The notes under the pieces: generated by a model | What the model saw: the letters and a program-made list of their open reading frames with translations, nothing else | What the model was told of the DNA's origin: nothing | The model's database searches: none | Source: an uncultured bacterium | Lineage (GTDB): Bacteria > Armatimonadota > JACIXR01 | Assembly (NCBI GenBank): GCA_938041455.1 | Contig: CALITO010000004.1 | Span: 1-64,000 of the forward strand | Length of the DNA stretch: 64,000 nucleotides | Reading direction: 5' to 3' | Program-made: the position numbers and the translations under genes | Shown here: positions 2 through 59,273 of the stretch, one piece after another | Layout: each line of letters begins with the position of its first letter | Position numbering within the stretch: position 1 is the first letter of the stretch

Positions 2-3000
2 GTAACCTCCACTACACTGCAGACTCCTACCCTACAGCACGGGATGACTTATTACTTCTCGGTGCGCGGATGGCGCAGCGTGGATAAGGGGGAAGTAGCA
101 ACCTCCGATGGGGTAACAGTTGATACACAGCCTCCCTCTTCTCAGGTGGACCCTCTTCCAGCCATTACGGATTCCCTCACATTCACCGTCTCCTGGCGGG
201 GAACAGATGTCCCCTCGGAGATTCAAAACTACGATGTCCAATACAGGGATGGAGCGACGGGGGCTTGGGTTGACTGGCAGATGGCAACAACGGTGACCTC
301 AGCCCAGTTCACTGGCGAAAATGGGCATACCTACTATTTCCGTTGTAGGGCGAGGGACAATGCTGGTAATGTTGAGGATTGGCCATCCGCTCCCGATACA
401 CAGACGCTGATCAATGTAGGAGCGGTCACTTTGACCGTCGTGGCGACACCCGCTTCTCTAACCTTCAGTGCGGGGGAGAACAGCAAAGATGTAACCTACA
501 GGATAACAGCGACTGGACCTCAAGGGGTCAACCTCACCACCTTGACTTTGAGGAGAGAGTTCGGGGATGGAACATCAGAGGAGATACCGGAGGTGATTTC
601 CCAGCGGATAGAAGCGGGGGGAAGTGTTGAGATGGGGCGGACGATCACACTTGATGATGCTACTCGCACGAGAGTTTTAGCCGGAGGAACGACTGGAACA
701 TTTGATATATCCGCGACCTTCAGTGGGAATGACGATAGCGGTAACGCGGTAAGTGGGTCAGCAAGGATAAGGGTAGAGGTCAGGGCGGGAGCACCAGAGG
801 TTTTTAATGTCAGTAATCTTCGCATTCAATTCACCGCAACCAGTCCATTCGCTATTGGACAGGGAGTGCGGGCGAGGGTATTGATGGATGCTTCAGGCAC
901 TCTGCCCGGGGATGTAAGGGGCGTTATATACCTTGATGGAAACCGCTGGAGGAGCTTTGGAGTTCGCCTTAGGGAAAGCGGTGAAAACGAGTTCGAGACC
1001 GACCCCCTGCCTACAGAGGAGAGCGTCGTTGGTAGGCACACTATAAGGGTTGAAATAGTAGAACCAACAGCCCTGAGCGCGCAGGCAAACTACGAGGTAA
1101 GTAGGGAGGCGGAAATACCAGCTTTCACTTTGAGCGAGTTGATCTTGATACCTGATACAGCGAAGCTCACCGATTTTAACTTTTCCTCCCCTCCCCAGAG
1201 GGAAGGAAACACAAATCGCTATACATTAAATGGCACCGCTAAGTTGACGATAATCTCCCTTGATAATCAAGAAGTAGCGGGGGTAACAGTGGAGAATCTA
1301 AAGATAGCCTATAACGATAGAGATCCCAGGAACTCGGAGGTTCGCTCGGGAAGGATTACGAAGGAAGTGGACGAGACCGCAGAGTCCCTGTTTAAGAAGT
1401 GGAAGGATTGTCTCCTTATTAGGAAGGTTGAGTATAACTATCCCGAGGGGAGCCCCACGAGACCGGATTTTCTCTCCCTCAGTGGCATGCTCCATATCCC
1501 CTACTTGGACCAGGATATTTACCAGATAAACGACCTTCACTGCACAAGGGATGGAATCGTTGGCAAGGACTTCCATTCACCACACGAGTGGAATGTATAT
1601 GGCTTTCGCTTCTCAATCAAGGATATAGGTAGCGCTCCTGCCATCTCCATAGGAAAAGATAGTTTAGGCTATTACATTTCAATTTCAGGAGAGCTGGCAG
1701 TTGGACAAAGGGGTAGCTCAAGCGTGAGCAAGATAGCCGATTTCAGTAACTTCAAATTTGCCTATAACAGGAGCAGGGACGATTTCAGCGTGGCTGGCAC
1801 CTTTAGAATAACCGACCCCTTCAACTTCATACCCGGCAACAATTATTTTGAACTTACTAACATCCAATTCACTAAGGAGACAGACACCTGGTTTATGAGG
1901 GTAGGATGTAGATTTCATAAGGAGAACCTGCCCGAGGGTGTAAGGGATTTACTCGCCAAGATACCTTCCCTGCCGGAAAATGTTGAATTTAAGTTCAGCA
2001 AGGGCGGAAACATAGAGGGAAAGATTTCTCTGATCAATGACTTGAGGAGCGGTGGACCAGGACATCGGCTTGACTACGATTTCGCAAGTTCTCGCACCTC
2101 CTCTGTCGACCCTACTGAATATAGGATACCGAAGATAGATTATGTGCTTGATCCAACCTATTTAGGAATAAATCTGAAGTGGGAGGATGGGGATTTCATA
2201 AGGGGACAAAGCAATATAGAGATAGCGCTTGACCTTTATCTCCCCAAGTTCAAGGATGAATCTGGCAACTGGGTGGAGGACCAGAATCGCCGGAGGGTGC
2301 AGGTAGGGGATGTGAATGAGAGAGGAGAATTCACCCCCGGGGTGAGGATATCTATGGATGGAGGGGTGGAGTGGAATGCCCCGATGATTACAATTGTGAG
2401 AGGTCTGCGCTACGCCTTCTTTGATGAAAAAGTGCTCCTTAGACTGAACGAATTGGCTTTCCAAGTCTATCCCTTCCTCGTGAGCATAAATGGCTCATTA
2501 GGGGTAGATTTCTCTATGATAGAGGGTGGGATAGACTTGGGGCTCAATATTGACCTTGACGGTAATGTGGAGTGGAGATTGGGAGGCGGTGGACACTTTG
2601 ACATAGTAAATGTGGTTCATCTGGGTGTAGAGAATCTGGATTTCTGGGGTGGTCCCGAGCCAAGGGAAATAACTCTCAACTTTGATAGGACAACGGGAGA
2701 AGGAACTGGGAGGAACTTTCAACAGAGTGGGGACACACCGATTCAAGTGAAGAGATATTTCAAGTTTGAGAACGCTTCTATAGACTTGGGAAGTTCGGGG
2801 AGTTGGTTTCACGGTAGTGTGGAACAGTTCTTGATATATACCAAGGTTGACGGGGAAACCAAGGTATCCATAAGGCACGCCGATGTCAGTGTTGCGGGGA
2901 TCCAACTTTTAAGCGATTATGACTATCACAACCCGATGTTAAGGGTGGCGGGGAAGGCGACTATTCCAAGTGGGCAGGAGATAATAATCGTGGGGAAACT

Positions 3001-6000
3001 TGGTTGGGGGGGAGAGGATATGACCTTCGGTCTATTCGGAGCGGTAGGAGGGCTCAGGATTCAGATTGGTCCCGTGACCCTTACCGATGTGGGGGGAGGC
3101 TTCTTCTATAATCCCGTTTCGGAGGACCTGGAGACCGTCAGGTATATGTGCGGATTTGAGAGACCGGAGATGAACGGAAAGATAGAGGCGAGAAGACCCG
3201 GTGGAGCGGATAATCCGGGAAGCTTTGCCGTTCTACTTTATGCGGGGGCGGTGATTGCCTCAGAGGACTTGGTGAGGGGCAAAGCCCTCGTCACCTTAAC
3301 GGAGAACTACTTCAATTTGGATGCGGAGGTAAGGGTTCTTCCCAGCGCCAATTTGGCAAGGGGAGTATTTTATCTGGGAGTTGGCTGGGACCCATTCTAT
3401 GCCGAGGGTTCTATAGATATAGAAGTGAATGCAGTGGATATAATAACTGGAAGAGGGCATTTGGATTTCTATGTCTATAGTAGCGATGCTTGGGGGATAA
3501 TGGGGAATGCCAATCTAAAGGTAATCCGCATAATAGATGTGACAGCGGAACTATTTGTGGGTAATCCCGGGTTTATGTTTGATGGAAGGGTTGGAGCCGG
3601 CATTGACCTTTACATAGTGAGTGGTGGTTTTGAGTTGGAGACACTTTTCTGGTATAAGAGAACCCCTCCCTCATCCTGGGGCGCCTATGCCAGGGGAAGA
3701 GCCTGGGGCGATGTGTTGGGAGGCTTGATAGGGGCGGATATCTCCCTTGAGGGTGCACTCATTCATACCTCGCCCGCCTTTATCATCTACTGCGTTGGTG
3801 GCTTGAAGGTGGAGGTTTGTTGGGTTACCGTTTTCAATGGTAGCGTTTGGGTCGCCCTGAGCACAGAGGAAGGCATAGATGGGGGGACGGGGAGAAACTC
3901 CCGCTATGATGAGTTGATAGACGAAGCAAGACATATGGCCGATGAAATGGAGGAGGAGAAAAATAGAGTAAAAGAGAGTATGGATGAGGCGAGGAGAGCC
4001 TATGACCGGCTTAGCGAGGAACAGAGGAGGCAGGCGGGGAGAACAGTGATACAACCTGATGAGGAGAAATATCGGCTGGTAACTACAGTGTATAACAGGG
4101 AGATGGGTGGTGCTGGATTCTCAACAATCTATTACTCCGGCTTACCTGAGCAATTACGAACTATCTGGGAGCAAGTGATAGATGGCAGGGAGGCGGAGAA
4201 TTTGGCTAATCTGCGGACTCAACTATTAAATAGCCAAGCCGAGATAGATGTTCTGAATGAGCAGATGGTTGCTAAATACGAGGCGGTTGCTAATAAGATA
4301 AACCAATATTCCGCTGTTTTAGAGGCGGAACTACCAAGCGTGAGGGAATTAGGAGAAATGGGAACTCCATTCCAGGGTTATGAGGAGCAGGCGGTTACAG
4401 CAAGGGATGGTTCAAGGAGAACGATTCGCACGGGCTTCAATATGGATTATGCGAAAGCTGAACGGCAGGCCAACGAATTCCAAGAGGTTAGCGAGGATTC
4501 CGCTCAATATGAGCAGAGGCTTCTCCAATTAATGGCTAACTTTGAGGAGAACCTACAAAGATTAGATGGGCTTCTCCACTGGGAAGACCCAGCAGTGGCA
4601 TCCCTCACCGAAGATTATTACGAAGGCTTCTCAAAAATTACCCGCCACTACAACAAGTTCATAGATTACCTCCGAGAGAACCAACAAAGTTGTATTAGAA
4701 GGTCAAGGACCTTATCCGGGATTTCCGAGACCTCGCTACGCTCTCTCTTTAATGATGTAGCCAATGCATTACCTGTTGACTTTCTGAAAAACTGGACTAA
4801 TGAGCGTATAAATAATATCAATAGTCTTTTGGGCAAAACAAGGGGAGAAGAAGGTAGCTACAACCCCATATTGAGCGACTCTGACCCCCCTGAGAGATGG
4901 AAGGAAGTTTTTGTGGATTCTGGTCTGGAACTATGGTATAGGATTCCCCGATCTGGTTTAGACGATGCGATATATCGCACCTCTACAATGCGTTTGGAAA
5001 GTGTAAATAACTATAAAAATTTGCTCAACTCTTTCTGCCCTCACTGGAAAAACTACACCAATTCACTTGACAACATCTATAGGAGAAAAGCGAGGCTATA
5101 CGAGATACTCTATGACCTATATGACCAGTTGGCGCTCTGCGATGGGGGATTGATCCGGATATCGGAGGTAGAGGGAACCTCCCCCGATTTACCGGCGGGA
5201 ATGATCTTGCGTAATTCACAATCCATCCAGAGGCTCCGGGAAATTATGCGGGGGGCACCGGAAATGAGACGAATTGAAGGTATGGGTGGTCCAGCGGGTC
5301 CGTCTACGGGACCACGACCTCTGCCTGTTGGCAGTTACATTACCGAGAGAGGGGTTAGGTTTATGAGCAAGCGCGATTACTTCAATATTAAGAAATGGGA
5401 GACCGCCCTCTATCTTGTAGTGCCGGAGATAACCTCGTTTAGAGGGGAGAGGGTTTCCGGTTATGGCTACGCCCTGATAAGCCTCAGCTGGGATGCTACC
5501 CATCCCTATAGTGATAGTCGCTATCCCGAAAGAAGCGGTGTAGTGGAATATAGCTGGGCGTTAAAGAATCCCGTGGGTCCGACCCTGGGCTGGGTATATG
5601 GAGTTCCCTCACCTCCTGCTGAATTTCCCCGTTATTCAGTGGGCAAAAAGAAGGAATTGAGAGTGCTTTTGTTCCAGGAGGGGACCCCACTTGGAGAATA
5701 TGAGGTTCGCCTGCGGGCAAGGGGCGCGGGTGGCTACACAATAGAGAGAATGGGAAGGGTGAATGTCAGATTCGCCCCTGAAGGTGACAGGAGCAGTTTA
5801 GACATTAGGGATGATACACCGCCCCTTAAGCCAAGGGTAGTAGTAAAGGGTCCTTACACAGCAAGTAGCGGAGAGATGTATGGCGAATGGGATTCTTACG
5901 ACTACGAATCCGGGATTCAGGAATATCAATATAAGATAGTGAGGATGTTGAGGTTAAGAGGTTCACTGCCCAGTTTTTCCGAAGCCTACGCATACAAGGG

Positions 6001-7219
6001 GTTACCTCAGCCTTCTCCCCTTGTAACTGGAGGGACCGCTATTCGGGAACCTCGCTTCGGTCAAACTCGGAGAGGAGTCGCCGGGAGCAGGGCTCCAGCA
6101 AGCAGTATAGTAGAAATAGGAGGTTTGATTGAAAGTGAAGATGTCATCCCCTGGACTTCCGCTGGCGGTATGAGGGAGATGAATATTCGGGGACTATCGC
6201 TACAACATAATAACTATTACAAACTTTTGGTCAGAGCTAAAAATGGAGCGGGGTTATGGAGCGAGGTTGGAGAATCAAACCTTGTCAAAGTGGACTTGAC
6301 ACCACCCGACCCACCTTACACAGCAAGCATTCAAATACAGAACATCTTCGGTTTCCCCTCTTCCTCAAGCAGTGGCTTCCAAATGCCAAGGGGCGATATC
6401 CGGGCGATGCCGGTAGGCGGTATAAGAGTGGAAAGAGGGGCGGGAGGATTGAGAGGGTCACCCTTGATAACGGTCGAGCAAGGTATAGCTTCGCAGATTC
6501 AGGAGAGTATGTTCCCCGAGATCTTGGCACAATCAGGAGAGAAGCCGTTTACCCTTCGTTGCAGTTGGGAATGGCATTACGACAACGATCCTGAATCCAG
6601 TATCAGCGGACATCGCTATGCCATAGGCACTGCTCCCGATAACACGGAGATACTCAACTGGACCGACCTTCCTCTTCCTCCAACCGCAGCTCCTCTTGAA
6701 GGAAGGAGCACAACCTCCGTATCCATCGTGGGATTCCCCGTTCGGAATGGCGTCACCTATTATCTGAGGGTTAGGAATGTCAATGGGGCTGGTGTCGCAG
6801 GCAATGAACGAGTAGCCAGTGTAACTTGCCAATTGGATGACTCTACACCACCCACTGCCCCCACTGTCAGCATTCAAAGGGAAGTGCCCACTACTGCCAC
6901 TATTATACCTGAGCGTAGGCTAAGACCAATCAGAGTGCTCTGGAGTCAAGCTCAGGATAGGGAATCGGGAATAATAGAGTATAAATGTGCTGTAGGGAGG
7001 ATTGGAAACCCGGAGGCTATAGTGCCTTGGACATCTGTGGGTATGGAACATCAATTCCAATTGCCAGAATCTTTGCCCGGAGGGACACTGCTCTTCTCCG
7101 TCAAGGCGATAAATGGAGCGGGCTTGGAAACAGTCTCCACAGCGAGCGTTCTTTACGAACGTCCCATAGAGGTAGCACCAGCAGGGGCAGTTATAGAGAG
7201 ACCCGAGATAAGGAGGTAA
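2..7219 (+). CDS. giant secreted/surface Fn3 and coiled-coil protein, 5' end off the window
   Basis: The frame is open to the left edge, so the first in-window ATG (44) is probably internal and the N-terminus is missing; at least 2,405 residues are visible. In order, numbering from ATG 44: an Fn3/Ig-like domain (about 40-120), a CARDB/Ig-like stretch (about 125-370), roughly 900 residues of Gly-rich amphipathic beta-strand repeats (about 370-1280), a charged helical coiled-coil region beginning near 1288 and continuing helical to about 1760, and a C-terminal block of Fn3-like domains introduced by TPP/TPPxPP linkers (about 1780-2391). No catalytic motif was recognised. The stop codon lies inside the ribosome site (AGGAGG at 7211) of the next gene, so the two are tightly coupled. 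Extracellular or cell-surface location is inferred from domain content and neighbours. The long beta section could also be a TamB/AsmA-like groove rather than adhesin repeats. Function unknown. Confidence 0.85.
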   Translation, partial: VTSTTLQTPTLQHGMTYYFSVRGWRSVDKGEVATSDGVTVDTQPPSSQVDPLPAITDSLTFTVSWRGTDVPSEIQNYDVQYRDGATGAWVDWQMATTVTSAQFTGENGHTYYFRCRARDNAGNVEDWPSAPDTQTLINVGAVTLTVVATPASLTFSAGENSKDVTYRITATGPQGVNLTTLTLRREFGDGTSEEIPEVISQRIEAGGSVEMGRTITLDDATRTRVLAGGTTGTFDISATFSGNDDSGNAVSGSARIRVEVRAGAPEVFNVSNLRIQFTATSPFAIGQGVRARVLMDASGTLPGDVRGVIYLDGNRWRSFGVRLRESGENEFETDPLPTEESVVGRHTIRVEIVEPTALSAQANYEVSREAEIPAFTLSELILIPDTAKLTDFNFSSPPQREGNTNRYTLNGTAKLTIISLDNQEVAGVTVENLKIAYNDRDPRNSEVRSGRITKEVDETAESLFKKWKDCLLIRKVEYNYPEGSPTRPDFLSLSGMLHIPYLDQDIYQINDLHCTRDGIVGKDFHSPHEWNVYGFRFSIKDIGSAPAISIGKDSLGYYISISGELAVGQRGSSSVSKIADFSNFKFAYNRSRDDFSVAGTFRITDPFNFIPGNNYFELTNIQFTKETDTWFMRVGCRFHKENLPEGVRDLLAKIPSLPENVEFKFSKGGNIEGKISLINDLRSGGPGHRLDYDFASSRTSSVDPTEYRIPKIDYVLDPTYLGINLKWEDGDFIRGQSNIEIALDLYLPKFKDESGNWVEDQNRRRVQVGDVNERGEFTPGVRISMDGGVEWNAPMITIVRGLRYAFFDEKVLLRLNELAFQVYPFLVSINGSLGVDFSMIEGGIDLGLNIDLDGNVEWRLGGGGHFDIVNVVHLGVENLDFWGGPEPREITLNFDRTTGEGTGRNFQQSGDTPIQVKRYFKFENASIDLGSSGSWFHGSVEQFLIYTKVDGETKVSIRHADVSVAGIQLLSDYDYHNPMLRVAGKATIPSGQEIIIVGKLGWGGEDMTFGLFGAVGGLRIQIGPVTLTDVGGGFFYNPVSEDLETVRYMCGFERPEMNGKIEARRPGGADNPGSFAVLLYAGAVIASEDLVRGKALVTLTENYFNLDAEVRVLPSANLARGVFYLGVGWDPFYAEGSIDIEVNAVDIITGRGHLDFYVYSSDAWGIMGNANLKVIRIIDVTAELFVGNPGFMFDGRVGAGIDLYIVSGGFELETLFWYKRTPPSSWGAYARGRAWGDVLGGLIGADISLEGALIHTSPAFIIYCVGGLKVEVCWVTVFNGSVWVALSTEEGIDGGTGRNSRYDELIDEARHMADEMEEEKNRVKESMDEARRAYDRLSEEQRRQAGRTVIQPDEEKYRLVTTVYNREMGGAGFSTIYYSGLPEQLRTIWEQVIDGREAENLANLRTQLLNSQAEIDVLNEQMVAKYEAVANKINQYSAVLEAELPSVRELGEMGTPFQGYEEQAVTARDGSRRTIRTGFNMDYAKAERQANEFQEVSEDSAQYEQRLLQLMANFEENLQRLDGLLHWEDPAVASLTEDYYEGFSKITRHYNKFIDYLRENQQSCIRRSRTLSGISETSLRSLFNDVANALPVDFLKNWTNERINNINSLLGKTRGEEGSYNPILSDSDPPERWKEVFVDSGLELWYRIPRSGLDDAIYRTSTMRLESVNNYKNLLNSFCPHWKNYTNSLDNIYRRKARLYEILYDLYDQLALCDGGLIRISEVEGTSPDLPAGMILRNSQSIQRLREIMRGAPEMRRIEGMGGPAGPSTGPRPLPVGSYITERGVRFMSKRDYFNIKKWETALYLVVPEITSFRGERVSGYGYALISLSWDATHPYSDSRYPERSGVVEYSWALKNPVGPTLGWVYGVPSPPAEFPRYSVGKKKELRVLLFQEGTPLGEYEVRLRARGAGGYTIERMGRVNVRFAPEGDRSSLDIRDDTPPLKPRVVVKGPYTASSGEMYGEWDSYDYESGIQEYQYKIVRMLRLRGSLPSFSEAYAYKGLPQPSPLVTGGTAIREPRFGQTRRGVAGSRAPASSIVEIGGLIESEDVIPWTSAGGMREMNIRGLSLQHNNYYKLLVRAKNGAGLWSEVGESNLVKVDLTPPDPPYTASIQIQNIFGFPSSSSSGFQMPRGDIRAMPVGGIRVERGAGGLRGSPLITVEQGIASQIQESMFPEILAQSGEKPFTLRCSWEWHYDNDPESSISGHRYAIGTAPDNTEILNWTDLPLPPTAAPLEGRSTTSVSIVGFPVRNGVTYYLRVRNVNGAGVAGNERVASVTCQLDDSTPPTAPTVSIQREVPTTATIIPERRLRPIRVLWSQAQDRESGIIEYKCAVGRIGNPEAIVPWTSVGMEHQFQLPESLPGGTLLFSVKAINGAGLETVSTASVLYERPIEVAPAGAVIERPEIRR

Positions 7220-7224
7220 AGGGA

Positions 7225-9231
7225 ATGCATATGCGAGGTAGAAAATATATTGAAAAAATAGGGGCGATAATCCTGCCCATATTATTTCTATGCAATGTGC
7301 TGGCACAGGAGGCGAAAGCTCCCCTATTCTTCGCTTTGCCAGACAAAGATAAGGTCTATATCATCCTTGGCCAAACTCCGAGAAGCTTTATGGGCTTCAA
7401 CCTTTACCGCAAAGAAGGGGCAGGTGCATATGAGAAATTGAACGATGTTCCTATAACGGGCACTTTGGACCCCACATATATGGTTGCTATATTAGGGGAG
7501 GAATATGAATGGGTAGCTAACGCCCTCCGAGCTGATAATGAGACGGAGTGCCTTTTCAAACTTCGCCAACCGGAAAACGGCATTCCCCTCTCCCTCCTCA
7601 GTAGGAAAGTTGCCCAAGTGCTGGGCAGGATATACATAGACGATAAAGCCAAAGCAGGAGGTAGCTACACATATAAAGTCGCCCTGCTCGACTGGAGCGA
7701 AAAGGAATTCCTCTCCGCTGAGCAAAGCATAATGGTTGCTCCCCACCAGCCCCCCACTCAATCCCCGAGAAATCTTAAGGCGGAGGCGAAAGATGGGGAG
7801 GTCTTCCTCACCTGGGAATATCCTCCCTATAAAGGGGGGAACGATATAGTGGTGGGATTCAATATTTACTCAAGGGGGGAGAAGGACGAGAAGTTCTACA
7901 AGATAACCCCCCTCCCCCTGCTCCGTTGGGAGGGGACCTTGTCCTACAGAGACTTGGATGTTGATAATGGCTTCACTTATCATTATTACATAACGAGTGT
8001 GGACATAATAGGGGCGGAGAGCGCTCCTTCCAATACCGTATCTGCTAAACCCTTTGATAAAACCCCTCCCGCTATACCTTCTGGTTTAGAAACGGTAAGC
8101 GAGGAAGCAAAGGTAAGCATTAGATGGAACCTCAGCCTCGAACTTGATATAGCGGGCTATAACATATTCAGAGCAACATCTATTACAGGTGACTTCCAGA
8201 AGTTGAACAAGGAACTCATCGCCCCCGATTCCCCCTATTACACTGACGAGGAGGTGGTAGCGGGAAATCTTTACTTCTATAGAGTAAGTGCGGTTGATAA
8301 GGCAGGGAATGAGAGCAAGATGAGCAATGCCATATCTGGAGCGGTAAGGGATACGACACCGCCTCAACCTCCCCGAAATCTAACAGCCGAGGTTAAGCAG
8401 CGCAAGGTCTACCTCAAGTGGGAGGCACCTCCTGATAAAGATGTGAAGGGATATTATGTCTACCGTGGTAACACGGAGAAGGACATCCTCAGCATTACCC
8501 CGAATCCACTCCCCAAGGAGCAATTGGAATATATCGACGAGGGTTTCCGCAAAGAAGGTTTGGTGCCAGGCGATTCCTATGTTTTGGGGGTATCGGCTGT
8601 GGATAATTCTTATAATGAAGGCAAACCCGCGTTCATCAAGGTTGAGATACCGGATGATGAACCACCTTCCCTTCCTGTATCCTTCTTCGCCCGCGCCAGG
8701 GAAGATGGCAAGGTTGAGGTGACCTGGCAGACGAGTATGTCAAGGGATGTAAATGGCTATAGAATTTATAGGGCGGAGGAGGGTAATGAACCCCTTATGA
8801 TAGGGGAAGTTGGCAAGGAAGTTTTCTCCTTCATAGACGATAAGGCGGAAAAGGGAAAGAGGTATCTTTATCAGGTGACCGCTGTTGATAAGGCGGGGAA
8901 CGAGAGCGAGAAAACGAAACCCGTTTTAGTTATTCCTTCCGATATAGAGAGACCGCCAACACCCCGGGGCATAAAGGTTGTAATCGCTGATAACGGTGTG
9001 CGGATAAGTTGGGAGGCTGTGCAAGTAGAGGACCTCTTGGGCTATAATGTATATCGTGCCGACTATCCCAGTGGAATTTACCAAAAACTCAACGAGGAAC
9101 CCGTCAAGGGAACTTCTTTCTTGGATAGGGATGGTAAAGCCAGCCATTATTATAAGATCACCGCCATAGATACATCCCGGAACGAAAGCATCCCTTCCAA
9201 GCCCCAGAAACCGGTTAAGGAAGGGGGCTAA
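7225..9231 (+). CDS. secreted protein with tandem fibronectin type III domains
   Basis: A 668-residue protein. The chosen ATG has AGGAGG eight bases upstream and is followed directly by a signal peptide (positive MHMRGRKYIEK, hydrophobic core, cut near LAQEA); the same frame is open further upstream inside the previous gene, but that extension lacks a signal or ribosome site. The first ~150 residues form one divergent Fn3-like module. Five regular Fn3 modules follow, each starting with a proline-rich linker (PPTQSPRNL, TPPAIPSGL, TPPQPPRNL, PPSLPVSF, RPPTPRGI) and carrying the usual GYxIYR strand and a terminal AVDxxGNES-type strand. There is no enzymatic domain and no C-terminal sorting signal. 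It lies between the giant Fn3 protein and an outer-membrane barrel, so a structural or adhesive role at the surface is likely, by inference. Confidence 0.88.
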   Translation: MHMRGRKYIEKIGAIILPILFLCNVLAQEAKAPLFFALPDKDKVYIILGQTPRSFMGFNLYRKEGAGAYEKLNDVPITGTLDPTYMVAILGEEYEWVANALRADNETECLFKLRQPENGIPLSLLSRKVAQVLGRIYIDDKAKAGGSYTYKVALLDWSEKEFLSAEQSIMVAPHQPPTQSPRNLKAEAKDGEVFLTWEYPPYKGGNDIVVGFNIYSRGEKDEKFYKITPLPLLRWEGTLSYRDLDVDNGFTYHYYITSVDIIGAESAPSNTVSAKPFDKTPPAIPSGLETVSEEAKVSIRWNLSLELDIAGYNIFRATSITGDFQKLNKELIAPDSPYYTDEEVVAGNLYFYRVSAVDKAGNESKMSNAISGAVRDTTPPQPPRNLTAEVKQRKVYLKWEAPPDKDVKGYYVYRGNTEKDILSITPNPLPKEQLEYIDEGFRKEGLVPGDSYVLGVSAVDNSYNEGKPAFIKVEIPDDEPPSLPVSFFARAREDGKVEVTWQTSMSRDVNGYRIYRAEEGNEPLMIGEVGKEVFSFIDDKAEKGKRYLYQVTAVDKAGNESEKTKPVLVIPSDIERPPTPRGIKVVIADNGVRISWEAVQVEDLLGYNVYRADYPSGIYQKLNEEPVKGTSFLDRDGKASHYYKITAIDTSRNESIPSKPQKPVKEGG

Positions 9232-9239
9232 GTAAAGAT

Positions 9240-11075
9240 ATGGTTTTCTCTAAACTTGGACCCAGAGCGCAACAAATCCTTGGGATAGCATTCCTGCTTC
9301 TTCCTTTTTTCTTTGTAAACCCCGCCTACGGTGGAGCTAAAGCGGAGGTTCTTTATATGGAGCCTGTTCCCCCTGCACCTCCTCCAGAAGCGGGGGTATG
9401 GAAGATAAACACCCTGGGGGATGCTACCTTGGGGCATCAGTCGGTGAAGGATGCAAGCGGTGAGAAAAGAGACGGAATTATAGGCAAGGTAGTGGTGAGC
9501 GTAAACGGGGAAAGGGAGAAACAGAGTATGAACGGCTCGCTTCAGTTCAACCGGCAGTTTATGACAACAGGCGATTTGAAGAACCTCGGCTTGAAAGCGG
9601 AGTGGAAAGACGAGAAAAGGGAATTGGGAATCCTTCATAACCTCTCTGACACGGGAAATATCGCGGCAAGGATATATAACTTGACCAGCCTAAAAGATAC
9701 GAAGCTCAACTTCGCATATAAAGAGGGCGAATATTCCTTTTTGCTCAACCTATTTCAAACTAAAAATCAAAATAGGAGCGCTGGTGTGCTTCAGCAGGAT
9801 GTTGATACGAAGCAAAAAAGCATATCTCTCCTCAAGAAGGCGGCGAAAAACGAGGCCAAGTTTATCTGGAGCGACGCGGAGAACTCCTCTCCCCTCACAG
9901 GTTTCCGCTCCTCCAGCAAGAACCTGTTTCTCCAGACAATCCATAATTTGAAAAGAGATACCCAAATATCATTTGGCTTGGAATTTATGGATACCAGTTC
10001 AAGAAGTGGGAGGACAGCGCCTCTCGTCTCCTCCTCAAATAAGAAATATAGCCTCGGCTTCACAACCCCCTTGGGCGAGAGATGGAAATTCAAACTGAAT
10101 TTCGATTCACTCCACAATAGATATAGTTCAGCGGGAAGGAGCACGAGCACGACAACCAATATAATAGATTATACCCTCTCCTACCAGCTCCTTCCTCCCC
10201 TCGCCTGGGAACTCAGTTATAACATTTACAAAACGAGTGGGCAGAGCGAGACGAAGAGGCTCTATAGTAGGTTAAACTTCACAGGAGCACCTCAAGGTTA
10301 TTTTCGCCTCGGCTCCTCAAGTCTTCTCTATCAACTACTGAATGTAAAGGATAGGACAGGGAGGAGGGTAGCGGAGAGCAATCAATTTCAGTTAATCCTT
10401 CCCATAAATTTAGGGATAAAGACCAACCTTATGGGCACGATTACAGTGGGTAAACAGGAAAGTGGCGGAATGCCCAGCAGCAGAATTACAGATATGAAGA
10501 ATTACAACCTATCTTTAAATCACAGGGCGACCTCTACCTCGCGTTACTTCCTCCAATATAATACGAACGACACATCAACGAGAGGCTATCCCTCTAACAG
10601 CGTTGATAACTATAGGATGGGAATAGAACTTATGGCCAAGGCGAAGGGTCAGCAGATGCCGATTTCTTTGACAAGGACGACCTCCTCTTCCAGCTACGGA
10701 GCGCAGGGCTCGGATGTGAAAGAGACCGCTATGAGTTTTGGTCTCCCTTCCTCCTCACCGAGGACGAGGCTTAGTTACATATTTGCCCTAACAAGTTCGG
10801 AAACAAGGGCTGTGGGTCGCACTATACAAAGGGATGCTAAAAGGCATTCCTTAAATATCTCCCTTGCCAACAAGGATGGAAACCTGCGTTTAGAAAGCCT
10901 TCTTTCCTATATAGACACAACCGAGGATTTGTTCAATATATCCCTCTCGCTCATATACCAGAAGCCCAAGAGTTATAAGATTTCCCTCGTCCTTTTCCGT
11001 AATAAAGAGTGCTTCTTCCCTGCTACCCCCTATAACACTCACAATATCCTCCTCCAACTGGTGTATAATTTCTAA
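9240..11075 (+). CDS. putative outer-membrane beta-barrel protein
   Basis: A 611-residue protein with an N-terminal signal sequence (hydrophobic stretch about residues 13-28, cut near AYG). After a Pro-rich linker (about 40-52) the rest is regular alternating amphipathic strands rich in Ser, Thr, Tyr and Lys, such as LSYQLLPPLAWELSYNIY and SLGFTTPLGERWKFKLNF. It ends LLQLVYNF; a C-terminal aromatic on the last strand is the hallmark recognised by the BAM machinery. No family could be named. It starts eight bases after the previous gene and stops one base before the next ATG, so it is operonic with the two Fn3 proteins and the TPR protein. It may be the pore or anchor that exports or displays them; this is inference. 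Confidence 0.8.
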   Translation: MVFSKLGPRAQQILGIAFLLLPFFFVNPAYGGAKAEVLYMEPVPPAPPPEAGVWKINTLGDATLGHQSVKDASGEKRDGIIGKVVVSVNGEREKQSMNGSLQFNRQFMTTGDLKNLGLKAEWKDEKRELGILHNLSDTGNIAARIYNLTSLKDTKLNFAYKEGEYSFLLNLFQTKNQNRSAGVLQQDVDTKQKSISLLKKAAKNEAKFIWSDAENSSPLTGFRSSSKNLFLQTIHNLKRDTQISFGLEFMDTSSRSGRTAPLVSSSNKKYSLGFTTPLGERWKFKLNFDSLHNRYSSAGRSTSTTTNIIDYTLSYQLLPPLAWELSYNIYKTSGQSETKRLYSRLNFTGAPQGYFRLGSSSLLYQLLNVKDRTGRRVAESNQFQLILPINLGIKTNLMGTITVGKQESGGMPSSRITDMKNYNLSLNHRATSTSRYFLQYNTNDTSTRGYPSNSVDNYRMGIELMAKAKGQQMPISLTRTTSSSSYGAQGSDVKETAMSFGLPSSSPRTRLSYIFALTSSETRAVGRTIQRDAKRHSLNISLANKDGNLRLESLLSYIDTTEDLFNISLSLIYQKPKSYKISLVLFRNKECFFPATPYNTHNILLQLVYNF

Positions 11076-11076
11076 T

Positions 11077-12696
11077 ATGAGGAATTTAACAAGTGTAGCG
11101 ATTTTGAGCTTGATACTCCTCTTATTACTGGGAGGGAAAGGGAGTTCTTCTGATGTTCAAGAGTATCTACAAAAAGGGGAGTATGAAAAGGCTATCCCAA
11201 TATTGGAAGATGCTATAAAGAATAAACCTACAGATAACAGTCTCAAGCAGGCACTTCTGGTTTGTTATTTCCAGATGGGGGTGAGGAAATTCCAGGGGGG
11301 TGAGTTCGCCTCCGCAGGGGAATATTTTTACAAGGCATTAAGCGTAGACCCCTCTTCTCTCCCCTCAAGACGGAACTTGGCTCTCACCTTCTTCAAATTG
11401 GGAAATTTGGAGGAAGCGAAGAAGGTGATAGAAGAGGGGCTCAAAGCAACCCCACCTGATAGGGATCTCCTCCTCTTATTAGCACAAATTTACCAGCAAG
11501 AGGGGGCTGGTGAGAAGGTATTAGCTACCCTTGAGGAAATACACAAGCACTATCCGAGGGACAAAGAAGTGGGGATGATATTGGCAAATCTCTATTATTC
11601 CCAACTGAAGATAGAGGAGGCAAGGAGGATATATCGGGATTTAGCAAAAGAATATCCCCAGGATATGGATGTTCTTTTGAGGGTAGCGAAGACCTATGAG
11701 GACGAAGGGAAATGGGCTGAAGCGATAGGCGAATATGAGAGGATGCTCGAGATAGAGCCCAAGAACTTGAATATCTACCGAAGAATGGGATGGATATATG
11801 AAAGGGAGGGTAAGTTGGACGAAGCTATAGAAGTGTATGAAAGAGCGGAAAAGGTTCTGCCCCAAGCAGGTGAGGTTTATCTTTGGCTGGGCGAGCTTTG
11901 GGAGAAGAAGGGGGACGAGAATTCAGCCCTGTTAAATTACAAGAGGGCGGTCCAGGTATCCCAGGAGCATCCCTTACCCTACTACAAGCTCGCGAGCAAA
12001 ACCGAGGACCCAAGGGAGAGAGAACTCCTCCTCAAGCAGGCGGTAAATAAGGGGGTAAGAATTCTGGAACAACTGGAACAGCGCCTTTTAATAGGGTTGG
12101 GGGAGGGAACAACTCTTGAAACTCTGCGAGGTTCCTTAGAGTTAGCGGAGGAAATAGAGAAAGTGGAGAAAACTCTTCGCTTAGCTCTGGATGCTTACTT
12201 ATTCCCTCCCTACAGCCAAAGCACAGAAGTATCGGAGAAGGACCTCCAAAACCTTCTGAAGAGATATCCCCGCAGTAGAATACTCTTGGAGTATACGGGG
12301 GTTATTTTGGAGAAGAAGGGGCAATGGGATAGGGCTTTGGAAATATGGAACAAAATTCTCCAGCGGAACGCCAAGGTGGAGAGAGCACACCTCGGTATGG
12401 GGAAGGCTTATGAAGCGAAAGGGGAGTGGGAGAAGGCGAAAATGGCGTATAAGCGGGCTTTAGAGTTAAAGGAAAATAACGAGGAAGCCTATCAGGGTTT
12501 AGTGAGGATGTCAGAGAAAACGGGGAAATTGGAGGAATTGGTGAAAGAGTGGGAGATGAAGGCGAAGTTTCCCTCCAACCGCTCAAATGTTCTATTTTTA
12601 TCAAGGTTAGAAGAACTTTTAAGAAAGACGGGGCGATATGAGGAGGCTGAAAGCATCAGGAAAAAGATAGAAGGATTGAGGGAAGAGGAGAAGTAA
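11077..12696 (+). CDS. secreted/periplasmic TPR-repeat protein
   Basis: A 539-residue protein with a signal-like hydrophobic N-terminus (residues 5-22) and no lipobox cysteine. Roughly a dozen 34-residue TPR units follow. An N-terminal array covers about residues 25-310, with typical segments such as GEYEKAIPILEDAIKNKP, GKLDEAIEVYERAEKVLP and GDENSALLNYKRAVQV. There is a less regular helical linker (about 310-400) and a second array to the end (GQWDRALEIWNKIL, GEWEKAKMAYKRALEL). TPR proteins scaffold protein complexes; several secretion and polysaccharide-export systems pair one with an outer-membrane pore. The ATG overlaps the previous stop region, so it is co-transcribed with the barrel. 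A lack of specific motifs prevents naming the system. Confidence 0.85.
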   Translation: MRNLTSVAILSLILLLLLGGKGSSSDVQEYLQKGEYEKAIPILEDAIKNKPTDNSLKQALLVCYFQMGVRKFQGGEFASAGEYFYKALSVDPSSLPSRRNLALTFFKLGNLEEAKKVIEEGLKATPPDRDLLLLLAQIYQQEGAGEKVLATLEEIHKHYPRDKEVGMILANLYYSQLKIEEARRIYRDLAKEYPQDMDVLLRVAKTYEDEGKWAEAIGEYERMLEIEPKNLNIYRRMGWIYEREGKLDEAIEVYERAEKVLPQAGEVYLWLGELWEKKGDENSALLNYKRAVQVSQEHPLPYYKLASKTEDPRERELLLKQAVNKGVRILEQLEQRLLIGLGEGTTLETLRGSLELAEEIEKVEKTLRLALDAYLFPPYSQSTEVSEKDLQNLLKRYPRSRILLEYTGVILEKKGQWDRALEIWNKILQRNAKVERAHLGMGKAYEAKGEWEKAKMAYKRALELKENNEEAYQGLVRMSEKTGKLEELVKEWEMKAKFPSNRSNVLFLSRLEELLRKTGRYEEAESIRKKIEGLREEEK

Positions 12697-12708: not shown

Positions 12709-13542
12709 GTGAAATATTATTCCAAAATAGCGATGTATGGGAGAGTAGGCTTGTGTTGTTTTCTTCTTGCTTCCCTTACCCTCTTAGGGAGGGGACTGAT
12801 GGGTGCTTCTCCCCTAAGGGTCAGGGGGAAGGAAGGATTTCGTCAGGCGGTTCTTTCAGCAAAAACTGGCACAACTATATTATTGGCTCCCGGGGTGTAT
12901 GAGGGCAATCCATACTTCGAGGAAGTGAAAGGCAGGTCGGGAAAACCCATAATAATAGCGGGAGAAGATCCCTCCAACCGACCCACAATTAAGGTCGGAC
13001 CCAAGGGAAATAGGGATGGCATAAAACTTTCTGGCGTAACGGATTTCAAAACAGAGAGGTGTGTTATCGAACAGTGGGGAGACGAAGGGCAGGGGATAGA
13101 TATGGTGGGTTGCCACCAGGGTATCATTAACAACTGTATATTGCGATATGAGGATGACAAAAGGGGTCGGTATCCAGGTGAAAGAAGGGAGTTCAGATAT
13201 TTTCATTAAGAATTGCCGATTTGAACATTCCGAAGTTCGGGCTATGCAGATAGGGGGAAGCACGGGAAAACAAGTTCTTCCGCTTAATACTTTCTATAGA
13301 CAAAACGATGGGTTATTCGCATACTTCGAGAAGCAGATGATAGTTTCGTTCTTTGTAGAAACGGAGTGTTCAAGAGAAATCTCGTGGTCTTCCCTTCTGA
13401 CGAATGGTTTGAGGGAGGAGTGAATGTTGGATCTGGCACCGCTCCCCATAGCTTCCGTTTCATTCAAAATTGGTGGTATTGCCTTGATTCCCCTGAGGCA
13501 AGACCAAGTTTGCCCACTCCTAAGGAGAGCACAAAACTTTGA
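12709..13542 (+). pseudogene. right-handed parallel beta-helix protein, frameshifted
   Basis: A GTG-started frame with a signal peptide runs as a pectate-lyase-like beta-helix (GTTILLAPGVYEGNPYFEEV, GIIINC-type rungs) until it drops out of frame near 13159-13166, in an AAAAGGGG run. The homology continues one base over (GVGIQVKEGSSDIFIKNCRF, QIGGSTGK) to about 13300. It then returns to the first frame at an AAAA run (13302-13305), giving KRWVIRIL and RNGVFKRNLVVF, and ends with an NWWYC-D-PE-LPTP tail and TGA at 13540. One extra A and one missing A would account for both shifts and restore about 277 residues. The segment between QIGGSTGK and NTFYR also looks shorter than I recall for this family. 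Either a real pseudogene or two homopolymer errors. The stop overlaps the TTG start of the next gene. Confidence 0.75.
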
Positions 13543-54484: not shown

Positions 54485-55024
54485 GTGAAGAAAGCAAAGT
54501 ATTTACTCATTGGCTTTATACTACTAATTACTGGAGGAGGGCTTTTTTTTCTCTCTCGCGAAGAGGTGAGGAAAGAAACACCCGGAAATATTTCTTTCCG
54601 CATGCTCTTGAACAAAGCCCATATAGTAGGGCGGCATAATGGTAAACTGCAGTGGGAATTAGAGGCGGACAAGACGGAGAAAAGTTCGGATGAACGGTTC
54701 ACTTACCTTTACGGAATTAAGAAAGGAATATTTTATGAATGGGAAGAAGGAAAACTATATTTTGAAGCTGAAAAGGCGAGTTACGATAACCTCACAAAAA
54801 GACTCCAGTTGGAAGATGTCCACATCTGGTATAAGGATATAAACGCCCGGGCACCTGTTTTAGTTTGGGATGGGGAGAAAGGATTAATTATATGCGAGAA
54901 GGGAGCGGATTTTCAAATCCAGAAATCCTCTCTAAAAGGAAATTACATAGAAGTAGATTTAAGGAACTCCTCTATACTTGTGAATAAGGGGATATTAAAA
55001 ACGAAGGTGGGGGGAATACTATGA
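54485..55024 (+). CDS. lptC: LptC-like lipopolysaccharide-export protein
   Basis: 179 residues from GTG 54485. One N-terminal transmembrane segment (YLLIGFILLITGGGLFFL) is followed by a beta-jellyroll OstA-like domain (HIVGRHNGKLQWELEADKTEKS, KLYFEAEKASYDNLTKRLQL), as in LptC, which links the inner-membrane LPS ABC transporter to LptA. Similarity is weak, as always in this family; the adjacent LptA-like gene (4-base overlap) supports the call. It implies an outer membrane with LPS-like lipid. No lptB, lptF or lptG lies here. Confidence 0.75.
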   Translation: MKKAKYLLIGFILLITGGGLFFLSREEVRKETPGNISFRMLLNKAHIVGRHNGKLQWELEADKTEKSSDERFTYLYGIKKGIFYEWEEGKLYFEAEKASYDNLTKRLQLEDVHIWYKDINARAPVLVWDGEKGLIICEKGADFQIQKSSLKGNYIEVDLRNSSILVNKGILKTKVGGIL

Positions 55025-55746
55025 TGAAGAAGATCGTGTTCCTCCTAATAGGTATGCTCGCTCTCCTTTCCCTTCCACCGGTTACTGTTCCCCAGGAGGA
55101 TAAAGAAGAGGAAAGGGATATAGAGTTTCGCTTTGAGAAAGCGAGATATGATCATAAGGCGAAGACTTACACATTTACCAAGGGGGAGTTGGTGGATGTA
55201 AAGGAAAAAGCAAAAGTGCAGGCGGAGGAAATAGTTTACAGTGAGGAAACGGAAAAGGCAACTGCCCAGGGTAATCTTGAGTTCAGCGACGAGGAAAATG
55301 TGATAACTGCACCTCTTTTGAGCGTGGATTTGAAGGAAAAGATAGCCATTTTAGAGGGAGGGGTAAGCATCGTGAACATCCATAAGCCCAAAGAGGGAAA
55401 GGAAGAAAGGAAGGAAGGATTGAAAAAATATTGGAAGGAGAAAACGCTTTTAAATTGTCAGAAAGTTACTTATAATTATAAAGATAAAGTTGCTCATTTA
55501 GATGGTAAGGTGTTTATCTCTCAAGAGGATAAAGAGCTAACAGCTAACAAGGTGATATGGTTAGGGAAAGAGGAAAAAATTATATTAGAGGGCGATGTTT
55601 TCTTTAAAGATGATAAGGGACAGACTCTGCGTTGTAGCAAGATGGTTATTTACACCAAGGAGGATAACGAATGGATTGACATAGAAGGACCACTCAGCGG
55701 GATTTTTAAATTAAAAGAGAAAAAAGAAGAAACTCCTTCCCAATAA
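55021..55746 (+). CDS. lptA: LptA/OstA-like periplasmic lipopolysaccharide transport protein
   Basis: 241 residues with a signal peptide (MMKKIVFLLIGMLALLSLPPV). The body is a series of OstA repeats, for example VQAEEIVYSEETEKATAQGN, VITAPLLSVDLKEKIAILEGG, CQKVTYNYKDKVAHLDGKV and TANKVIWLGKEEKIILEGDV. LptA bridges the periplasm by stacking jellyrolls. A charged, Lys/Glu-rich insertion (about 115-145) interrupts the repeats. Typical LptA is about 170-185 residues; this one is longer, so it may be a related OstA-family component. Confidence 0.8.
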   Translation: MMKKIVFLLIGMLALLSLPPVTVPQEDKEEERDIEFRFEKARYDHKAKTYTFTKGELVDVKEKAKVQAEEIVYSEETEKATAQGNLEFSDEENVITAPLLSVDLKEKIAILEGGVSIVNIHKPKEGKEERKEGLKKYWKEKTLLNCQKVTYNYKDKVAHLDGKVFISQEDKELTANKVIWLGKEEKIILEGDVFFKDDKGQTLRCSKMVIYTKEDNEWIDIEGPLSGIFKLKEKKEETPSQ

Positions 55747-57772: not shown

Positions 57773-58359
57773 GGGGGTATACTCTCCCTCTATTAATAAC
57801 TCTACCTTTCTTTGCTTTTACTGCCCCCCTGGTGGAGATAGCTTCCCCTAAAGCAAGTAGCTACCTCTCTTTTCTCAAAAAAAGCTTTTCCCAGGCGAAA
57901 TTAAATATAGTAGTGTATCCCAAATATCGCTCTCCTCATATATCGGTTAATGGCAGTTTTCTATCTTCTTTAAATGCTGAGGAAAGGGCGAAAGTTGATT
58001 TAAAGAAAAAAATAGAAAAAGCCTTTCAACAAGAGAAGTCTACTAAAATTGGGTTTGATTCCCTTAGCATAAACCATAAGAATAAAGGATTTTTCTTTTC
58101 CTTTGCCCCCTGCAATTATGGCAAAACCGATTTTCGCGGTAGATGGGTTGCCTTCGTAACGGAAGAAGATGGTCGTCTACTTCATCGCGCCGAGGGGAGA
58201 TTGGAAATTCCCTCTGGAGCCTGCGGACGCCCTATAAATTTCAACTGGCTGGGGAAACACAAGTCTTCCAAACTCGTTTTCATAGTTGCCCTTTTTGACG
58301 AGAAGGGCAAATACATAATCTCAAAATCTAACTTAGAAACGGAGGCGAAGGGGAAATGA
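57769..58359 (+). CDS. secreted protein of unknown function
   Basis: 196 residues with a signal peptide (YTLPLLITLPFFAFTAP). The mature chain is basic and mainly beta (LNIVVYPKYRSPHISVNGSF, GFFFSFAPCNYGKTDFRGRW) with two cysteines in the centre, CNYG and ACGR. No family recognised. It overlaps both neighbours by four bases and so is strictly operonic with the zinc ribbon and the CsgG-like gene; a role as partner of the latter is inference. Confidence 0.72.
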   Translation: MRGYTLPLLITLPFFAFTAPLVEIASPKASSYLSFLKKSFSQAKLNIVVYPKYRSPHISVNGSFLSSLNAEERAKVDLKKKIEKAFQQEKSTKIGFDSLSINHKNKGFFFSFAPCNYGKTDFRGRWVAFVTEEDGRLLHRAEGRLEIPSGACGRPINFNWLGKHKSSKLVFIVALFDEKGKYIISKSNLETEAKGK

Positions 58360-59273
58360 AAAGAGGTTTTGGTTTCATTGTTCTCTTATTTCTGGTCTCC
58401 TCTCTCTTCTCCCAAGAAGTGGCCCCTAATTTAAAGAAAAGGATAGCGGTTATACCTTTTGATAGCGAGGTTGTTAGCACCCCCAATCTGGGAAGAATTG
58501 TGGGTGAGATGTTTACTACAGCCCTCGTTCGCTTAGGTGCCTTTGATGTCATAGAGAGAAGTAAGATAGAAGCGATTACACAAGAGTTGAAGTTCCAGCA
58601 ATCAGGGATGGTGGACCCCTCCACAGCAGTTGCAATTGGCAAATTGCTGGGTGTCGAGTACATACTTACGGGAACGATAACGGAATTCGGCATCAGGGAG
58701 GAGAAAAAAGGAGGGATCTTGGGCTTCTTCAAGAACCTCTTTGGTGGAGGAGCTAAGAAAATAAGTAAAGCGAGGATTAAATTTGACTTCCGCATAATAG
58801 ATGTGGCAACGGGTAAGATATTCTTCGCGGATACGGGGGAAGGGGAGGAAAAACAAAGCAGTTTCGCTTTTGGTGTAGGAACAGACCTTGAAAAATGGAT
58901 AGGGGGTATAGGGACGGAATCCAAGGAATGGGAACAAAGTGCCTTTTCTAAAGCCACACGTAAAGCGGTTGATAATGCGATAGGGAAATTTGCTCTTTTG
59001 TTTTCCCCTCAAGGAAAGGTTATAGCACGCGAAAAGAAGACGGTGATAGTAGATATAGGTGCCTCGGCTGGGCTCAAAGAGGGAATGCTCCTTGAGGTTT
59101 ACCGGATACACCCAATAAAGGATGAGGAGGGGAACATCGTCTGGGTAGATAGGACGAAGGTAGGGGAAATAAAAATAATAGAGGTGCGGGAGGATAAAGC
59201 AAAAGGGGAGATTATCTCTGAGACGCAAAGCGTGCGCCAAGGCGACCTCGCTTTTCCACTACTTAAAAAGTAA
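58356..59273 (+). CDS. CsgG-like secreted/outer-membrane-associated protein
   Basis: 305 residues with a signal peptide ending SSLFSQE and no lipobox. The CsgG/HfaB-type fold is recognised from KKRIAVIPFDSEVVSTPNLGRIV, EMFTTALVRLGAFDVIERSKIEAI, IGKLLGVEYILTGTITEFG and KFDFRIIDVATGKIFFADTGEGE. CsgG forms the curli secretion pore in the outer membrane, but many homologues are regulators of unknown role. A C-terminal extension (REKKTVIVDIGASAGLKEGMLLEVYR) resembles the flagellar/tip FlgT-type module. No curli subunit or CsgEF was found nearby. Confidence 0.82.
   Translation: MKRGFGFIVLLFLVSSLFSQEVAPNLKKRIAVIPFDSEVVSTPNLGRIVGEMFTTALVRLGAFDVIERSKIEAITQELKFQQSGMVDPSTAVAIGKLLGVEYILTGTITEFGIREEKKGGILGFFKNLFGGGAKKISKARIKFDFRIIDVATGKIFFADTGEGEEKQSSFAFGVGTDLEKWIGGIGTESKEWEQSAFSKATRKAVDNAIGKFALLFSPQGKVIAREKKTVIVDIGASAGLKEGMLLEVYRIHPIKDEEGNIVWVDRTKVGEIKIIEVREDKAKGEIISETQSVRQGDLAFPLLKK

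Follow-up and report, generated by a model that had tools for sequence, protein, structure and literature searches.

A four-gene operon of an Armatimonadota lineage that may encode a cell-surface structure

The 64,000-nucleotide stretch of DNA that was analysed here, called the window below, opens with a compact operon for a giant exported protein with fibronectin type III (Fn3) domains, a second Fn3 protein, a predicted outer-membrane beta-barrel and a TPR protein. The interpretation that we favour, with a confidence that stays somewhat short of even, is that this operon builds a cell-surface structure specific to the lineage, in which the barrel and the TPR protein serve export or anchoring. 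If this is real, the lineage possesses its own surface or envelope apparatus, maybe tied to a recurrent and tightly coupled pair of giant and Fn3 genes.

Operon layout and predicted products

The genes and the recognisable parts of the giant protein are:

2-7219, + strand: gene 1, encoding the giant exported protein (2405 residues in the window, 2510 with the part encoded on contig C2)
2-420, + strand: N-terminal Fn3 part of gene 1, with a Pfam fn3 match at residues 60-124
1106-3874, + strand: central part of gene 1, 923 aa, rich in beta structure and with strongly alternating hydropathy
3875-5176, + strand: helical region of gene 1, about 430 residues of which 30% are charged, probably coiled coil (helical amphipathicity at z 6.7)
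5177-7216, + strand: C-terminal part of gene 1, where Fn3-like repeats are recognisable by eye, none of which Pfam detects
7225-9231, + strand: gene 2, exported protein with some six Fn3-type domains; a helical insert interrupts the first of them
9240-11075, + strand: gene 3, 611 aa with signal peptide and C-terminal Phe, predicted to form a large beta-barrel in the outer membrane
11077-12696, + strand: gene 4, TPR protein of 539 aa that carries a signal peptide

The start of the window is also the end of contig C4, so that the left edge of gene 1 is cut by an assembly break. When the genome was searched with gene 1, a coding match of 138 bases was obtained at the end of contig C2, on the minus strand, and C2 (minus strand) and the window start share an exact overlap of 141 bases (1-141 in both) that lies inside the Fn3-coding part. 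C2:455-1 (minus strand) supplies the start that gene 1 lacks in the window, 105 residues including the signal peptide, and the joined frame has the signal-peptide-like N-terminus MFSNSRG... (MFSNSRGVPGVRVQEKRRIQKGYFYLFAFFSLLLLSIPGWSQ). A divergently oriented oxidoreductase gene begins some 150 bases further upstream, which indicates that gene 1 heads the operon and that no member is missing on the 5' side. An earlier note on this DNA had described four genes on one strand with gaps of 5, 8 and 1 bases and with actual or likely export signals in all products, and this description holds, since signal-peptide-like N-termini are found in all four proteins, for gene 1 by way of the C2 junction. Its suggestion that the missing 5' sequence might bring additional members is refuted, as that sequence holds only the 105 residues of gene 1, followed by the oxidoreductase gene.

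The orthologues of gene 1 in two sister species have 2766 and 2748 aa and are about 240 residues longer than the protein from the window; most of the difference is due to one more Fn3-like repeat. The contig break is located near the start of this extra repeat, and one repeat copy of gene 1 may therefore have been collapsed in the assembly. Directly after the operon, at 12709-13209, there is a short exported-looking open reading frame (166 aa) that resembles a truncated right-handed beta-helix protein; for G001, one of the related genomes compared below, no counterpart is listed downstream of the TPR gene.

The assignments of the earlier note to the individual products were confirmed. The giant protein combines an Fn3 domain (Pfam, E 2.5e-9) with a beta-rich region of about the claimed 900 residues, of which the hydropathy alternates with a z of 5.1 against shuffles. 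The proposed coiled coil corresponds to a helical, charged and amphipathic region, for which a coiled-coil structure is probable. Structure prediction of the beta region from three close sequences gave a mean pLDDT of 29, and sequence searches against solved structures returned nothing useful. Gene 2 is an Fn3 protein and gene 4 a TPR protein according to Pfam (E 6.2e-22 and 1e-40, respectively). Gene 3 terminates in Phe, as claimed, and was modelled as a beta-barrel at moderate confidence (mean pLDDT 52), with 24 strands over residues 164-610 and two more before these, and its predicted location is the outer membrane. The solved folds closest to this model are generic large barrels (including FpvA, the FimD usher, TonB-dependent receptors, LptD and SlpA; TM-score at most 0.35), and no barrel-family match was found for gene 3 in Pfam or NCBIfam.

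Conservation in the genus and giant/Fn3 pairs in the phylum

The earlier note had asked whether the four genes occur together in other genomes, and the answer is positive within the genus and negative for the other genomes searched. The central region of the giant protein is present in two further species of the genus with 84-86% identity. Pairwise comparison within the genus gives identities of 85% in this beta region, 80-83% in gene 2 and 64-71% in gene 3, while gene 4 is 65% identical. In G001, the order giant, Fn3 protein, barrel, TPR protein and the tight spacing are kept, and the genes on either side of the operon are not those of the window. In G002, the first three are adjacent across two contigs and the TPR orthologue (68% identity) is found alone on a third contig, unlinked. 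No relative of the beta region of the giant was found outside the genus among the 291 phylum genomes searched, nor in plasmid records, and two scans of genome contigs matched the sister genome only (JACIXQ01, bacterium isolate MAG-56). Matches to the barrel in four distant genomes were at noise level and in unrelated contexts, and were rejected. As judged by sequence, the four-gene set is thus restricted to the genus.

A wider pattern came to light through a weak family match. All three orthologous beta regions weakly match DUF6603 (PF20248; best E 0.02), a family without a known function. For the window the match has E 0.049 and 12.6 bits, as compared to a curated cut-off of 27, and covers residues 612-669 of the region; a whole-genome search with DUF6603 gave no match in the genus. 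A phylum-wide search with the same family led to a 993-residue protein of G125, and searches with this protein and with its aligned relatives yielded the wider set discussed here. The profile segment matched in the genus (85-144) overlaps the segment matched by the G125 giant (48-156). This set comprises 13 loci (L038, L048, L049-L053 and L068-L073) from 11 genomes that do not belong to the genus, each with a gene for an exported, beta-rich giant of about 970-1190 residues that is followed directly by a gene for an Fn3 protein. This second gene lies 3' of the giant gene and on the same strand in 13 of 13 cases, encodes 899 to 1452 residues (one copy is ended by a contig edge), and in most loci is separated from the giant gene by a gap, or overlaps it, by a few bases. 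Such a pair is also located in a genome that consists of a single contig of 3,437,861 bases (G023). The pattern is named by none of the libraries used, and the pair appears to be undescribed; the papers searched included none that names DUF6603 and none that brings together Armatimonad- names, Fn3 domains and the outer membrane.

The surroundings of these pairs vary. Upstream of the giant gene, both G125 and G127 encode CsgG and a protein in which TPRs are followed by a barrel-like C-terminus, where the TPR and CsgG calls are supported by Pfam for G125 and made by resemblance for G127; CsgG is also present at the locus in G023. An esterase-like DUF676 domain occurs at two loci, either encoded upstream or fused to the N-terminus of the giant beta protein itself (L049, 5886-11396). 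Downstream at the G125 locus there is a gene resembling a Zn-dependent phospholipase C, and a similar one, also identified by resemblance, occurs in G127.

The window shows the same architecture, with an exported beta-rich giant and, after 5 bases, an Fn3 protein, and the question arises whether its pair is related to the wider ones. The giants of the wider pairs have no significant sequence match to that of the window, are mostly shorter and without a clear coiled-coil region. When the giants were compared over the whole region with hhalign, a P of 0.05 was obtained, with several block-shuffled decoys scoring higher; a C-terminal part that was picked after inspection gave P 0.0004, a score equalled by 4 of 150 decoys. 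The Fn3 proteins of the window and of the wider pairs show a similarly split first domain. For this domain, hhalign gave P 4.9e-5 and a score of 38.7; none of 200 column shuffles exceeded 21.1, but ordinary Fn3 domains taken from these proteins reached 31.7. With a profile of the distant first domains, gene 2 was the best match in this genome and in both sister genomes, at E-values similar to those of generic Fn3 domains in other genomes. Separate barrel and TPR genes, as in the window operon, were not seen at the wider loci. A candidate relationship between the gene 3 barrel and the TPR-plus-barrel-like protein of these loci was rejected, as no relation was detectable (hhalign P 0.19). Taken together, these mixed comparisons are suggestive of homology between the window pair and the wider pairs. 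A more far-reaching proposal, which we regard as rather doubtful, is that the window operon and the 13 pairs represent one undescribed envelope machine of the phylum, composed of a giant amphipathic beta protein and a dedicated Fn3 partner, with TPR and barrel functions on separate genes here and in a single gene in two distant relatives.

Possible role and competing explanations

The earlier note could assign the set to none of the named secretion systems, and the Pfam and NCBIfam searches likewise gave no such match. PgaA, BcsC, AlgK/AlgE and Slam resemble the operon in combining a periplasmic TPR protein with an outer-membrane barrel, but the TPR matches of gene 4 to PgaA and BcsC remain far under the cut-off (62 of 367 bits and 50 of 858, respectively), Slam is matched in its TPR part only, and the operon has no polysaccharide synthase. 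The type IX secretion system likewise combines exported surface proteins of large size with a large barrel, but the NCBIfam matches include neither a T9SS C-terminal domain in genes 1 and 2 nor a core component, and PorW/PorE give generic TPR matches below the cut-off. The score of gene 4 against PrsT of the XrtA/PEP-CTERM system (143 bits) also falls short of the cut-off of 312. With TamA/TamB, the operon shares a large amphipathic beta protein encoded beside a barrel gene, with a comparable alternation score, but gene 1 lacks a TamB family match, gene 3 lacks a BamA-type match, and the giant of the window has Fn3 and coiled-coil parts.

The surface structure that we propose is suggested by the signal-peptide-like starts of all four proteins, by the conserved order and spacing in G001 and the retention of all four genes in G002, by a barrel model of at least 24 strands with the FimD usher, TonB-dependent receptors and LptD among its nearest folds, and by the recurrence of the giant-then-Fn3 arrangement at 13 loci, two of which have CsgG and a TPR protein with barrel-like C-terminus. 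A pair of small exported-looking proteins at 54485-55746, which resemble LptC and LptA when the translations are inspected by eye, is consistent with the presence of an outer membrane. The products of genes 1 and 2 would cross the inner membrane by means of their signal peptides, and gene 3 could provide a large pore or an anchor in the outer membrane. Gene 4, as a periplasmic TPR protein, may guide the large proteins to the barrel or keep them there. The amphipathic beta region and the coiled coil of the giant would then form the body of the structure, while the Fn3 domains of both proteins might make contacts with each other, with neighbouring cells or with polymers. Counting against such a structure are the unlinked TPR gene in G002 and the outcome of the Pfam and NCBIfam searches, which revealed no known signal for secretion or surface anchoring in either gene 1 or gene 2. 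TPR and Fn3 domains are common and therefore tell little about the mechanism.

The same proteins could also be purely structural parts of the envelope, with the barrel mechanically anchoring a layer or sheath of Fn3 and giant proteins and no secretion step depending on it. Large, conserved, repeat-rich proteins with a coiled coil that are encoded alongside a barrel would suit this explanation, as would the appearance of the outer-membrane protein SlpA among the fold matches of gene 3. However, the SlpA match is generic, at a TM-score of at most 0.35, and no peptidoglycan-binding or S-layer domain was found with Pfam or NCBIfam, and we consider this explanation unlikely. Still slightly less probable in our view is that the genes are loose neighbours in a region with glycoside-hydrolase-like genes, namely Fn3 proteins for contact with polysaccharides, a porin unconnected with them and a TPR protein of a general kind. 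The gene at 13539 indeed looks like a glycoside hydrolase from its sequence, the set is kept by the genus only and the TPR gene is separate in G002, but mere proximity is difficult to reconcile with the gaps of 5, 8 and 1 bases, with an order that is preserved in G001 despite different flanking genes, and with the retention of all four genes in G002 at identities of 64-85% within the genus.

A third explanation takes the beta region of the giant as a hydrophobic groove of the TamB/AsmA type that spans the periplasm and along which lipids, or hydrophobic cargo of another kind, would reach the outer membrane; gene 3 would be the barrel that works with it. This explanation is a live rival because the hydropathy alternation resembles that of TamB of E. 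coli and because lipid-enzyme-like genes occur in the neighbourhood of some of the wider pairs. The z values of 5.1 for the beta region and 5.9 to 9.8 for four members of the wider family are in the range of E. coli TamB (8.8), and exceed those of gene 3 (1.5) and gene 2 (0.7); the lipid-enzyme-like genes are found at a few of the wider loci (DUF676 at two, phospholipase C-like genes in G125 and G127). On the other hand, alternation is to be expected in many beta proteins, no Pfam match to TamB or AsmA was obtained with E up to 10, the Fn3 and coiled-coil parts are foreign to TamB, and no lipid enzyme was noticed beside the window operon. We regard such a groove as improbable, and the surface structure as the preferred interpretation.

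The window also encodes a CsgG-family protein, at 58356-59273, beside a DXS-like gene. Because of the distance of 46 kb it is not counted as a part of the operon; it is the sole CsgG match in this genome, and each sister genome has one as well.
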